A stretch of 27,823 bases of DNA from a virus. The DNA lies in the IMG/VR virus record IMGVR_UViG_3300031227_000318, positions 1 through 27,823 of that record. One strand, given 5' to 3'. This document shows positions 2,604-15,918 of the stretch, piece by piece (position 1 is the first letter of the stretch; each line of letters starts with the position of its first letter). Below the pieces are notes generated by a model. The model was not told the origin of the DNA. It was given only the letters and a program-made list of their open reading frames with translations, and searched no databases. The position numbers and the translations under genes are program-made.

Positions 2604-3899
2604 ATGTTAAACGAACAATCTAAAATAAAATTAGATGGTATAATTAAGCAGATGATTGCTAATAAAGAATCTGAAAAAACAATTCAGATGGTCGTTGATG
2701 ATTTTAAGTCTAAATATGACACAGCTAAACTCACTACTTCTGCTAATGCTTCTGAAAAATCAAGTTGGTTTAAGGAAAATGTTATTGGTGGTTATAAAGA
2801 TAGAATTTCTGATGTTAAAGGTGCAGCCAAAGGAGTCGTGAATACATTAACTGGTATTTCTTCATTAGGAGAACGAGGAATAAAATTTTTAAGCTTTAGT
2901 AAATTTGAAGAAGGAGAAAAGACATCAGCAGAAAAACTGATTCCTGAAAAATTTAGAACACCTGAAAAAGATGAGAAACTTGGATTTGCTTTAGAACAAA
3001 TAGCTGAATTTCTAATTCCTATACCGGGAACAAAGGTATCTAAAGTTATAAAACTAACTAAAACTGGTAAAGTTATCCAGATGGCTAAAACAGCTGGTAA
3101 AACAACAGCAGAATTTTCAGCAAAGACTGCAGCACAAAGAGGTGAAGTTAAACCGGGAGATATTGCTGTTAGCGCTGGAGCTGTTATAGCTGGTGGTTTA
3201 GTAACTAAGTTAGGTGCAGAGATATTTAAGAGAGTTCCTACTTGGTTAATGCAAAAAGCAATTGGACAGAAGCCATTAGCATTTATTGAAGGACAAGATG
3301 TTTCTAAATATGCATTAAAGAACAGAAAAGTTGGTACAGTAAATAGTCTTATGAATCGAGGAAATGTAGAAATTGATAAAGCTATTAAGGAAATAAACGA
3401 TAAGCTCCCTAAAAACCAAGCTATTCAACCATCATGGGTAAAGAGTTATGTAGATGGAGCTATTAAAAATCTTAAAGAAAAGAATATAGAAGCTACATTA
3501 GCTAGTATGAATAGTGCTCTTAAATATGATGTAGGGAAAGTATTTCCTAAGCTAGGACTAGAAAAACCAATGATTAAAGCTTATAATGAAACAATACTAA
3601 GAGATGCTTTAAAAGTAAAGATGGCAGAAGGAGCAGGTCAAAAAAGGTTAAGCATGGACAGTATAATCCCATTGTTAATGGGTGGTTATGGTTATTCTCT
3701 TGGAGGTATTCCTGGCGCTGTTGGTGGTTATATAACTAAAAAAGTTTTAACTAGTATTCCGGTCTTAACAAGCACAGCAGTAACAATGGATGTAACTAAG
3801 CGTCTGGCAGAGAAAGGTTTAAATAAGCTTACAATACAAGAGAGAGAATCAATTTTAAGAGTAATGATGGGACTCTTAAGTCAAGGAGTTCAGAAATAA
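2604..3899 (+). CDS. Probable virion protein with Gly-rich hydrophobic segments
   Basis: 431 residues, starting 4 bases after the CHAP gene and therefore translated with it. No enzymatic motif is recognised. The N-terminus (to about residue 40) is a short charged helix of a kind often seen at the start of phage structural proteins. Residues about 60-100 and 175-205 contain Gly/Ala/Val-rich amphipathic or weakly membrane-seeking stretches, and near the C-terminus (about 355-395) there is a second Gly-rich hydrophobic stretch (LLMGGYGYSLGGIPGAVGGY). This composition resembles internal virion or ejection proteins that insert into membranes during DNA entry, which would fit its place beside a virion lysin. 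It is the last gene of this operon; a strong terminator follows at 3962. The functional guess rests only on composition and position. Confidence 0.6.
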   Translation: MLNEQSKIKLDGIIKQMIANKESEKTIQMVVDDFKSKYDTAKLTTSANASEKSSWFKENVIGGYKDRISDVKGAAKGVVNTLTGISSLGERGIKFLSFSKFEEGEKTSAEKLIPEKFRTPEKDEKLGFALEQIAEFLIPIPGTKVSKVIKLTKTGKVIQMAKTAGKTTAEFSAKTAAQRGEVKPGDIAVSAGAVIAGGLVTKLGAEIFKRVPTWLMQKAIGQKPLAFIEGQDVSKYALKNRKVGTVNSLMNRGNVEIDKAIKEINDKLPKNQAIQPSWVKSYVDGAIKNLKEKNIEATLASMNSALKYDVGKVFPKLGLEKPMIKAYNETILRDALKVKMAEGAGQKRLSMDSIIPLLMGGYGYSLGGIPGAVGGYITKKVLTSIPVLTSTAVTMDVTKRLAEKGLNKLTIQERESILRVMMGLLSQGVQK

Positions 3900-13548: not shown

Positions 13549-13977
13549 TTATGCTAACCCATTAAATATTTTAATAGTAATAGCTTGAATCTTCTTCTCT
13601 TCTTCTTTCATCTTGTCATAAGCTCTATGACATTTTACACATAGTGGTGCATAGTCTTTTAATCTTCTACGGTAGCTGTGATCAATGTTTGCCCAATCAT
13701 CAGCAATTCTTTTTCCACAGCTTGCACAAACATAATCTTTGGCCGCTCCGTTCTTTCGACATACCCATTTATGCATCGCTGATACTCCTGCTTTATTTCC
13801 TTTCCAATTATGAGCATCTTCATCTCTTTTGCCATAACTTGAACCCTGCGCGCCACTCATTTTAGCGCTAATTTTATCCTTAGTGGATTGGGAACGTGGA
13901 ACACCTTTGTTCCAAGATGATTTGCCTTTTCCCCAGTTTGCGTTCTTCATAGATTTTGTGTCTTCCTCTCCGATCAC
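13549..13977 (-). CDS. NUMOD3-HNH endonuclease, homing type
   Basis: 142 residues from a GTG start (an ATG at 13950 is an alternative). The N-terminal half carries NUMOD3-like DNA-binding motifs (SSWNKGVPRSQSTKDKIS, then GKRDEDAHNWKG). The C-terminal half is an HNH nuclease: CASC zinc ligands, ADDWANIDHSYRRR with the catalytic Asp-His region, then PLCVKCH. This architecture is typical of free-standing or intron-borne phage homing endonucleases that cut a specific site and promote their own spread. No RuvC domain is present, so it is not an IscB-type RNA-guided nuclease. It lies between two folded RNA segments, as an intron-encoded ORF would. Confidence 0.85.
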   Translation of the reverse strand: MIGEEDTKSMKNANWGKGKSSWNKGVPRSQSTKDKISAKMSGAQGSSYGKRDEDAHNWKGNKAGVSAMHKWVCRKNGAAKDYVCASCGKRIADDWANIDHSYRRRLKDYAPLCVKCHRAYDKMKEEEKKIQAITIKIFNGLA

Positions 13978-13984
13978 TTACAAG

Positions 13985-14066
13985 AAAACGGAGACTCGTT
14001 CTGATGCTTCTTTATTGATGAGGTGTTAAAGAAACATGTAAATAAACGAAGAGGAAGATGTAAGTT
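13985..14066 (-). ncRNA. Folded RNA segment upstream of the HNH gene
   Basis: Nested complementary segments close on each other: CACTTAC near 13983-13989 with GTAAGT at about 14060-14065; CTCGTT with AACGAAG; and TTCTTTA with TAAAGAA in the centre. Together they make a long imperfect hairpin of about 80 bases. It ends only a few bases from the GTG start of the HNH gene, so it could control that gene or be the 5' part of an intron-like RNA. Confidence 0.4.
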
Positions 14067-14074
14067 AGTAATTT

Positions 14075-14161
14075 AAAAAACCGAGAAGCAAAGAAATGTG
14101 CCAACTCCCACAAACAGGAGCAACGGATTTTAACCGTCTCACTTCTTCGCTTTTCGGTTCT
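14075..14161 (-). ncRNA. Three-way-junction RNA ending in a T-run
   Basis: On the minus strand, AACCGA-A-AAGC-G-AAGAA pairs with TTCTT-T-GCTT-C-TCGGTT, making a stem of about 16 pairs with one G.U and one mismatch. Inside, GTG/CAC closes a junction with two hairpins: ACGG-TTAAAAT-CCGT (7-base loop) and CTCC-TGTTTGTG-GGAG. The stem runs directly into six T residues (14080 down to 14075). It is either a branched intrinsic terminator or a compact small RNA of about 90 nt with its own terminator. It loosely resembles a truncated cloverleaf but cannot be fitted as a tRNA. Confidence 0.55.
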
Positions 14162-14204
14162 TTGAATTGTGTTTGTGTTGCTGGCATATATTTAATCAAT
14201 TAAT

Positions 14205-14262
14205 AAAAAAGTGTAAATTCATCTTATGGGGAGAAGTTCAAAAACTCCCCTGATAAATTTAC
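14205..14262 (-). terminator. Intrinsic terminator of the tmRNA / small RNA unit
   Basis: Two stacked stems on the minus strand: GTAAATT with AATTTAC (outer) and GGGGAG with CTCCCC (inner, 11-base loop), separated by a small internal loop and followed by C and six T residues (14210 down to 14205). Confidence 0.8.
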
Positions 14263-14308
14263 GCTTCAATATTGAACTTTTTATCTATGTGACTATGGCT
14301 AGTCCTAT
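14205..14308 (-). ncRNA. Small RNA of about 100 nt with its own promoter and terminator
   Basis: A minus-strand promoter (TTGACG, 16-base spacer, TATTAT at 14315-14342) lies about 7 bases upstream of position 14308. About 100 bases later an intrinsic terminator (14205-14262) ends the unit. There is no open frame of note between them. The 5' part contains a TTCAATATTGAA palindrome. The target is unknown. The same terminator would also end transcripts coming from the tmRNA. Confidence 0.55.
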
Positions 14309-14314
14309 ATCTTA

Positions 14315-14342
14315 ATAATAACATATATTCAGATTACGTCAA
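14315..14342 (-). promoter_or_regulatory. Sigma-70 promoter for the small RNA
   Basis: Minus strand: -35 TTGACG (14342-14337), 16-base spacer ending in TGT (extended -10 type), -10 TATTAT (14320-14315). Predicted start near 14308. Confidence 0.55.
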
Positions 14343-14393
14343 GCCTTTTAATGGCTATTTAATTCTAGCTAACATTAGCTAATATATCTCAAC

Positions 14394-14413
14394 TTACGAA
14401 CTCAAGTTCGTAA
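14394..14413. promoter_or_regulatory. LexA-like palindrome, copy 1
   Basis: Core ACGAACTCAAGTTCGT, an inverted repeat with 9-10 bp arms. The inner part CGAAC-N4-GTTCG is the Gram-positive (Cheo/DinR-LexA) SOS-box pattern. This copy lies about 50 bases upstream of the small-RNA promoter and about 65 bases beyond the tmRNA 3' end. Identical arms occur at 15770 and 23008. Confidence 0.7.
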
Positions 14414-14437
14414 ATTTGTATTAACTTTTTGCATAGT

Positions 14438-14468
14438 TGTGTGGACTATCCACACATTTGTGTGGATA
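14438..14468. promoter_or_regulatory. Two opposed TATCCACA sites
   Basis: TATCCACA at 14447-14454 (plus) and its complement TGTGGATA at 14461-14468. The first is part of an inverted repeat TGTGTGG-ACTAT-CCACACA (14438-14456). The motif equals 8 of 9 bases of the DnaA box TTATCCACA and recurs four times between 15557 and 15894. Confidence 0.55.
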
Positions 14469-14477
14469 CTATTTTAG

Positions 14478-14861
14478 TGGAGATGGTGGGAATTGAACCC
14501 ACGTCTAATAAAAACTCGAAAGTACTTTTACGAAAATGTTCTGATTTTTAATCTTACTGTTATTGCAAAACCAAACAAAAGAAATAACAGCCAGTCTTGT
14601 TAGTTTAAATTAGTAAGCCAAGACAACTAGCTAATCGATTCTAATTAATGACACCTGGTGACAGCTATTAGAAATCACTGGCCAGATGGTTGTGCTTAGG
14701 ATCAAGCAGCAACAGGAGCAAAAACTAGCATACTAAAAGCAGCTTGCATTTTGCTGAATAAGTTTTTTGCACTTATTTTAATTCGGTGTGATTTACGTGA
14801 TAACCGAGAAGCACGTTTCGAATACTTTCTAATATTCCTATTATCGATGCCTGGCATCCCC
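14478..14861 (-). ncRNA. ssrA: tmRNA (SsrA)
   Basis: About 384 nt. The 5' end GGGGATG (14861-14855) pairs with CATCTCC at the 3' end (14485-14479) over 7 bp with one G.U, forming the tRNA-like acceptor. Next to it is a T-arm, GTGGG-TTCAATT-CCCAC, preceded by the conserved GAC. CCA is not encoded (ACTA follows). The tag frame begins with resume codon GCA at 14770-14768 and ends with TGA at 14704-14702. It encodes 22 residues starting AKNLFSKMQA and ending MLVFAPVAA, so the terminal Val-Ala-Ala matches the protease-recognition end of SsrA tags. tmRNA with SmpB rescues stalled ribosomes and tags the product for degradation. Here it lies 4 bases beyond a tRNA-Thr and is probably cut from the same precursor. 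No smpB is in the window, so host SmpB is presumably used. The tag is long and hydrophobic compared with the common 10-residue tags. Confidence 0.9.
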
Positions 14862-14864
14862 GTG

Positions 14865-14937
14865 AGCCTCCGGTAGGAGTCGAACCTACAATCTTCTGGT
14901 TACAAATCAGGAGCTTTACCAGCTAAGCTACAGAGGC
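14865..14937 (-). tRNA. tRNA-Thr (TGT)
   Basis: Acceptor GCCTCTG/CGGAGGC (one G.U), D-arm GCTT-AGCTGGTA-AAGC, anticodon loop TTTGTAA with anticodon TGT, T-arm GTAGG-TTCGACT-CCTAC. No encoded CCA. The anticodon stem CCTGA/CCAGA has only three pairs: 27-43 is C-A and 31-39 is A-C. This is unusual and may mean a degenerate tRNA or one altered around the anticodon. It lies between the large structured RNA and the tmRNA. Confidence 0.9.
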
Positions 14938-14963
14938 TTATTGTTTAAATCTCGATTAGATAT

Positions 14964-15380
14964 AACCCGGCCTTTAAAAGGTCATATAATATATACTCTT
15001 AGATTAAGATAATTTCAATAAATTTAATTCATTATAAATAAACTTAATTTATTGTTATGTAAGAGAATCTCTAAGAGCAGATAAAACAGAAGGTCATTGC
15101 GGGAAAGTTATTCCCTGACTGCTATGTTACTCTTATTTTAAATCCCAAACTTATATCGGGATCATGTCAGACAAGTAGGCCGGGTTTTCACGGAGCACGG
15201 ACAATCAGCTGAGTACAAGGATTATTGCTGTAGAGCTTCCGGAGAAGATACATCGCCCGCCTTATACTCAATTGACCATCCGTGTCGTTAGCTTGCTAAG
15301 ACATTTGGTTTCAAGGTATTTAACGCCCCAGATACCATTAAACTAGGCATATTCTCTATTGTAAGGTAGACCACCACGTG
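14964..15380 (-). ncRNA. Large structured RNA of about 400 nt upstream of tRNA-Thr and tmRNA
   Basis: No protein gene is visible, but long-range pairing is dense. AGGCCGGGTT (15177-15186) pairs perfectly with AACCCGGCCT (14964-14973), enclosing a 200-base domain with hairpins at 15093-15119 (GTCA, GGGAA/TTCCC), 15142-15162 (ATCCC/GGGAT), 15072-15135 (TAAGAG + AGCAG with CTGCT + CTCTTA) and an AT-rich stem at 15016-15054 (CAATAAATT/AATTTATTG). The other domain is a stepped stem: CACGGA (15196-15201) with TCCGTG (15279-15284), CAAT with ATTG, and GAGTACAAG (15211-15219) with CTTATACTC (15261-15269), topped by CTTC-CGGA-GAAG (15236-15247). Wobble pairs in the long stem are G.U only if the minus strand is the RNA, which fits the promoters at 15504 and 15568. 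Size, ornate fold and position beside phage tRNAs recall the ROOL and GOLLD classes, but a match to either is not claimed. Confidence 0.6.
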
Positions 15381-15386
15381 GCCAAG

Positions 15387-15497
15387 AAAAAAACATTGTT
15401 TAGACAACTGTTGTGACTCCGTAGAAGAAAAGTCGTGTATAAATACACTCAGTTATCTAAATAATGTCTTCTTCTACGATTCAATTTCTTTAGTTAT
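15387..15497 (-). promoter_or_regulatory. Attenuator-like leader: two competing stems and a T-run
   Basis: The RNA from the promoter at 15504 would begin near 15497. Its first stem pairs 15478-15469 with 15429-15420 (CGTAGAAGAA/TTCTTCTACG, 10 perfect pairs). A second stem pairs 15466-15450 with 15410-15394 (17 positions, one mismatch, one G.U in minus sense) and runs straight into seven T residues (15393-15387), as in an intrinsic terminator. Its loop contains a hairpin GTGTA/TACAC (15435-15448). The two long stems interleave, so they either exclude each other (antiterminator versus terminator) or form a pseudoknot. The large RNA, tRNA-Thr and tmRNA lie downstream. Confidence 0.6.
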
Positions 15498-15503
15498 GAT
15501 TTA

Positions 15504-15542
15504 AGTATACCATACTGACAGATCCTGTCAAGTACTGTACTT
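15504..15542 (-). promoter_or_regulatory. Sigma-70 promoter with nested inverted repeats, leftward
   Basis: Minus strand: -35 TTGACA (15531-15526), 16-base spacer ending TGG, -10 TATACT (15509-15504). Three inverted repeats cover it: AGTAT-ACC-ATACT (15504-15516), TGACA-GATCC-TGTCA (15516-15530) and AAGTAC-T-GTACTT (15530-15542). These are candidate operators. The -35 context CTTGACAGGA is shared with the promoters at 15568 and 15851. Confidence 0.75.
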
Positions 15543-15567
15543 AATAGCTACTCGACTATCCACACTT

Positions 15568-15595
15568 ATTGTATCACACCTGAATTTCCTGTCAA
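15568..15595 (-). promoter_or_regulatory. Second leftward sigma-70 promoter
   Basis: Minus strand: -35 TTGACA (15595-15590), 16-base spacer ending TGA (extended -10), -10 TACAAT (15573-15568). It lies 64 bases upstream of the first leftward promoter. A TATCCACA site (15557-15564) overlaps the predicted start near 15561. Confidence 0.7.
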
Positions 15596-15769
15596 GACAA
15601 TTAACAATAAGCTCATATTAATAGGTATAATCTATATGTTTACTATACCTGTTTTATATTTAACTGAAAGATTTTTGTGAAGATATCTTCATAACTTGGT
15701 CTTGACTAATTGAGAATATAAAAAGTATCCACACATCTATCCACACATCTAAAGAAAATAAAAACTCAA

Positions 15770-15791
15770 TTTACGAACTTGAGTTCGTAAA
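15770..15791. promoter_or_regulatory. LexA-like palindrome, copy 2
   Basis: Core ACGAACTTGAGTTCGT with 10-bp arms; its centre is the reverse complement of the other two copies. It lies between the divergent promoters (leftward at 15568, rightward at 15851), 60 bases upstream of the rightward -35. An SOS-type or phage repressor could act here. Confidence 0.7.
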
Positions 15792-15850
15792 ATTAGAAAA
15801 AGCTTCATTTTGCTAGCATAATCGTTGATTATTAAATGTGGCCTAAGTGC

Positions 15851-15879
15851 TTGACAGGAGTGGCTAAATAATATATAAT
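15851..15879 (+). promoter_or_regulatory. Consensus sigma-70 promoter, rightward
   Basis: TTGACA (15851-15856), 17-base spacer, TATAAT (15874-15879): a perfect match in both boxes and in spacing. The start is predicted near 15886, directly before the TATCCACA site at 15887. It would drive the gene at 15919 and the packaging operon. Confidence 0.9.
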
Positions 15880-15918
15880 ATAAGAGTATCCACACTAATT
15901 AAGTATTAAAAAGTTGAT

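Follow-up and report, generated by a model that had tools for sequence, protein, structure and literature searches.

Gene content and features of the locus

The 27.8-kb window (the whole stretch of DNA that was analyzed, taken from IMG/VR) is a fragment of a tailed phage. Its plus strand carries genes for terminase, capsid, and tail fibre, its minus strand genes for DNA metabolism, glycosyltransferase, and peptidase. The two divergent modules are separated by a 1.9-kb stretch whose minus strand encodes a tRNA-Thr and a tmRNA. No open reading frame of at least 60 aa was found between 13977 and 15919, and the longest frame overlapping the large RNA described here has 39 codons and a TTG start, in agreement with an initial annotation that had placed no protein gene in this region. 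The features are listed 5' to 3' along the minus strand, with the domains of the large RNA directly below it.

15568..15595, minus: predicted distal sigma-70-like promoter P1, TTGACA-16-TACAAT with extended -10 (TG); 11/12 match
15504..15531, minus: predicted proximal sigma-70-like promoter P2, TTGACA-16-TATACT with extended -10 (TG); 11/12 match, predicted start site ~15497
14938..15497, minus: large structured RNA, boundaries inferred; z -8.7 for 14945-15484, no Rfam match
15385..15475, minus: 5' domain, a 25-bp hairpin (13+12 bp) that encloses two small hairpins; z -7.1, below 200/200 shuffles
15289..15384, minus: middle region, small hairpin 15383-15369 and a poorly defined remainder; z +0.3, most pair probabilities 0.4-0.6
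15190..15288, minus: domain 2, a 24-bp stem (12+12) with C(UCCG)G at its apex (15247-15236); z -4.4, below 200/200 shuffles, pair probability 0.98-0.99
14964..15186, minus: domain 3, multibranch, closed by the 10-bp long-range stem 15186-15177/14973-14964; z -5.7, below 200/200 shuffles
14864..14937, minus: tRNA-Thr (UGU), from ARAGORN; Rfam 63 bits
14477..14861, minus: one-piece tmRNA with tag AKNLFSKMQAAFSMLVFAPVAA, from ARAGORN; Rfam 128.8 bits
14205..14262, minus: likely terminator region 3' of the tmRNA, hairpin 14262-14213 followed by U6; from sequence and a pair probability of 0.99-1.00

Directly downstream of the large RNA and on the same strand are the tRNA-Thr and the tmRNA, with a 2-nt spacer between these two. 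Seven promoter matches of P1/P2 quality occur in the window, compared with ~2 expected per shuffled window, and two of the seven are the tandem P1/P2 pair. We set the 5' end near 15497 because of the 25-bp 5' hairpin (15475-15385) and the promoters at 15595-15568 and 15531-15504; this predicted start and the first stem are ~20 nt apart. Cleavage of the tRNA-Thr by RNase P would set the 3' end at 14938, giving a minus-strand RNA of ~550-560 nt between the inferred start and that site. The element had been annotated at 14964-15380; it is indeed present there, but the extent of ~400 nt was too small, the RNA probably running from ~15497 to 14938. Between the promoters and the tmRNA we saw no terminator of the classical type, although the 5' hairpin does end in a U7 tract. 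With each element visible in the sequence, the large RNA, tRNA-Thr, and tmRNA are apparently transcribed jointly. The initial annotation of a large minus-strand RNA with elaborate structure, apparently in one transcript with the tRNA-Thr and tmRNA, is well supported.

Folding statistics and domain structure

For 14945-15484, the folding energy of the minus strand is -164.2 kcal/mol vs a shuffle mean of -117.3 (z -8.7), and the plus strand of the same interval scores z -3.1. Other 540-nt tiles of the window, sampled every 1 kb, ranged from z +3.3 to -4.6, excepting minus-strand tiles that overlap the large RNA or its downstream flank. The only other minus-strand tile equally strong was 14001-14540 (z -8.2), which falls in that flank and has hairpins of its own. 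Compared with its own shuffles, the tmRNA of this phage scored z -3.6, weaker than the large RNA. G-U pairs make up 21/166 pairs of the minus fold and 10/154 of the plus fold. The wobble pairs had been described as fitting only the minus strand; "only" slightly overstates this because the 10-bp stem is itself strand-neutral and each of two long stems has a single A.C mismatch, which on the plus strand would become a wobble pair. Together with the promoters, these statistics make a real structured minus-strand RNA at this locus highly probable.

Because three domains fold below every shuffle and the middle region scores z +0.3, the structural case rests on those three domains, with the middle ~95 nt undefined. 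The apical loop of domain 2 (15247-15236) is a UNCG-type tetraloop. The perfect 10-bp long-range stem reported at the outset was confirmed: AACCCGGCCU (15186-15177) pairs exactly with AGGCCGGGUU (14973-14964) at a mean pair probability of 0.96. Some perfect 10-mer pairing arose in 14% of dinucleotide shuffles, and a long-range one with at least seven G/C in 0/2000. We did not take the end-to-end (5'-3') closing helix of the isolated fold as evidence; it was found in 10% of shuffles and was lost once the downstream RNAs were included.

The first ~110 nt can also form a 10-bp hairpin (15478-15469/15429-15420) that is mutually exclusive with the 25-bp hairpin, whose 3' arm is accompanied by the U7 tract. 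In prefix folding, the 10-bp hairpin was dominant at 78-96 nt, and the longer hairpin took over from 102 nt, the length at which the U tract is being transcribed. The forced alternative hairpin folds at -22.7 kcal/mol vs -35.1 kcal/mol for the long one.

Comparison with known RNA families

ROOL assembles into a homo-octameric nanocage and GOLLD into a multimeric cage expressed at lysis; the purpose of both cages is unknown. Both are described as phage RNAs often located near tRNA islands and forming nanocages (PMC12286853). The large RNA had been proposed as a possible relative of these two, and we found no match to either model. A scan of the window with all of Rfam (Rfam 15) at gathering thresholds returned nothing for the large RNA and did detect the tRNA and tmRNA, and a scan with 4227 models at E<=10 gave no ROOL, GOLLD, RNase P, or riboswitch match, only hairpin-type chance matches. 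One of these, mir-977 on 15387-15474 at the loose Rfam threshold, was discarded as such. Single searches with the ROOL model, run without a positive control, and with the GOLLD model, which covers the conserved 3' region, were likewise empty. The whole-library scan therefore carries the weight against ROOL, as it recovered the tRNA and tmRNA. RNase P had also been suggested for comparison and gave no covariance-model match at E<=10; we weighed a similarity between ACCCGGCCUA and the RNase P CR-V sequence but rejected it.

The large RNA is like ROOL (RF03087; 574 model positions) in its phage genome, nearby tRNA genes, elaborate fold, and similar length, the length here depending on inferred ends; it differs in having no covariance-model match. 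It shares with GOLLD (RF02032) a phage genome, a position near tRNA genes, and a large and ornate form, but has no model match and is shorter than typical GOLLD RNAs, many of which exceed 800 nt. Our best reading is that it resembles ROOL and GOLLD in size and setting only and is a member of neither.

Search for homologues

We looked for homologues of the large RNA in phage and plasmid records and found none. Two sequence patterns taken from it gave only chance matches in IMG/VR, and scans of genome contigs gave no match. Relatives of the phage were reached through TerL, MCP, portal, the zinc-finger-like protein at 13549-13977, and a 65-aa neighbour; none of these had a credible match, including ~30 portal relatives. 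Nor did a credible match appear in 19 contigs, related or tmRNA-bearing, whose records were scanned in full. A tRNA-tmRNA junction pattern in IMG/VR hit mostly loci without a tmRNA; adjacent tRNA and tmRNA genes were found in L022, L064, L089, L096, and L124, none with the large RNA. A single-sequence covariance model of 15186-15349, run over the collected loci and 16 records, matched nothing beyond its own sequence and the reverse complement of that sequence.

The closest relatives (L002, L163, and L126) end before the large-RNA locus. In two others, L142 and L166, no copy of the large RNA was detectable in the region between the divergent modules, where AT-rich, repeat-rich DNA with DnaA boxes is found instead. 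Because pattern scans require exact short matches, absence from the searched sets is weak evidence of rarity.

Possible roles of the large RNA

The leading explanation, at about even odds, is that the locus yields a discrete, stable, non-coding phage RNA of ~550 nt that is cut from an ncRNA/tRNA-Thr/tmRNA precursor and acts in trans. Under this model, the two strong tandem promoters would drive a precursor of large RNA, then tRNA-Thr, then tmRNA. As established tRNA maturation would predict, RNase P would cut at the 5' end of the tRNA and thereby free the 3' end of the large RNA, and the next cut would free the tmRNA. The released RNA could then act as a structural or binding RNA beside the tRNAs and tmRNA of a translation-support kit during infection. 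Judging by setting and size, its most likely function would be that of a scaffold or a platform for binding, as with other large phage RNAs that lie close to tRNA genes. The model draws on the strand-specific fold beyond chance, the three domains, the GC-rich stem, the tetraloop, the lack of an ORF, the tandem promoters, the tRNA-Thr and tmRNA downstream, and the hairpin with U6; weighed against it are the failure to find a homologue, the gap without a copy in L142 and L166, the lost closing helix, and the middle 95 nt without excess structure.

More tentatively, and on balance with some doubt, the RNA could be the founding example of a new class: a large and ornate RNA that the phage would transcribe together with a tRNA and a tmRNA and that would work in trans, possibly self-assembling, in translation takeover. 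Because no homologue was found, and hence no covariation, such a class is possible but undemonstrated. If this is a third, unrelated large RNA, its physical linkage with tRNA-Thr and tmRNA in a small phage would tie large RNAs of this kind to the rescue of ribosomes or the takeover of translation, and would offer a compact locus for tests of function.

The main rival to a discrete RNA, which we regard as rather unlikely, is a structured 5' leader that controls in cis the read-through into, or the maturation or stability of, the tRNA-Thr/tmRNA precursor. It is supported by the prefix-fold switch: an early 10-bp hairpin replaced by a longer one directly before U7 is attenuator-like, and the 25-bp stem could be an RNase III site. 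Pairing of a riboswitch with a tmRNA has been reported in the marine phage Melnitz (PMC9004378), which is similar in linking a structured RNA element to a phage tmRNA; there, however, a two-piece tmRNA is combined with a glutamine riboswitch, whereas the tmRNA here is one-piece and no riboswitch family matches. Moreover, a leader needs only the first ~110 nt, yet two more domains (223 and 99 nt) are each over-stable in their own right; unlike a strong terminator, the stem adjoining the U tract is rich in A and U and has a long loop.

Less likely still is a part in phage replication, with the large RNA, or its DNA strand in folded form, acting in initiation or priming at an intergenic origin. 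The six TATCCACAC sites, each agreeing with the DnaA box at 8/9 positions, are confined to 14447-15895 (0.16 expected), the GC-skew minimum is at 15774, and the corresponding gap of L142 and L166 contains TTATCCACA boxes and TATAGTA repeats. However, the skew also tracks the divergent gene order, the six sites fall outside the structured region, and the origin-like gaps of L142 and L166 are without the large RNA. The strand-specific structure with wobble pairs points to RNA. A very divergent member of ROOL, GOLLD, or RNase P missed by present covariance models is the least probable reading and a very improbable one, given the empty model searches, even though the size and setting are ROOL- and GOLLD-like and phage RNAs can diverge fast.

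Other features of the region and its relatives

Apart from any role of the large RNA, the clustering of TATCCACAC sites between the divergent modules, close to the GC-skew minimum, may mark a replication origin. The promoters at 15851-15879, 15595-15568, and 15531-15504 have an extended -35 element, CTTGACAGGA, in common. Downstream, the minus strand of 14000-14345 has further over-stable hairpins (14262-14213 with U6, and 14163-14075 with a U run), the first of which goes with a promoter-like site at 14342-14315; these are possibly small RNAs or tandem terminators.

The palindrome TTACGAACTYRAGTTCGTAA occurs in three copies (14394-14413, 15771-15790, and 23009-23028; 0 expected by chance) and, among the 175 loci compared, only in those of the same phage. 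The IMG/VR contig L002 starts at the middle copy (15771-15790). The pattern of the palindrome, GAAC-N4-GTTC, resembles the Gram-positive LexA box; since one copy lies directly after the capsid gene, a bidirectional terminator is also possible. Among the relatives, the more distant L149 encodes a tmRNA with tag GKNLVQSPYFPFGLGLPVQYA at 2795-3147, and the terminase large subunit of L163 (1235-3982; 915 aa) appears to contain two inteins.
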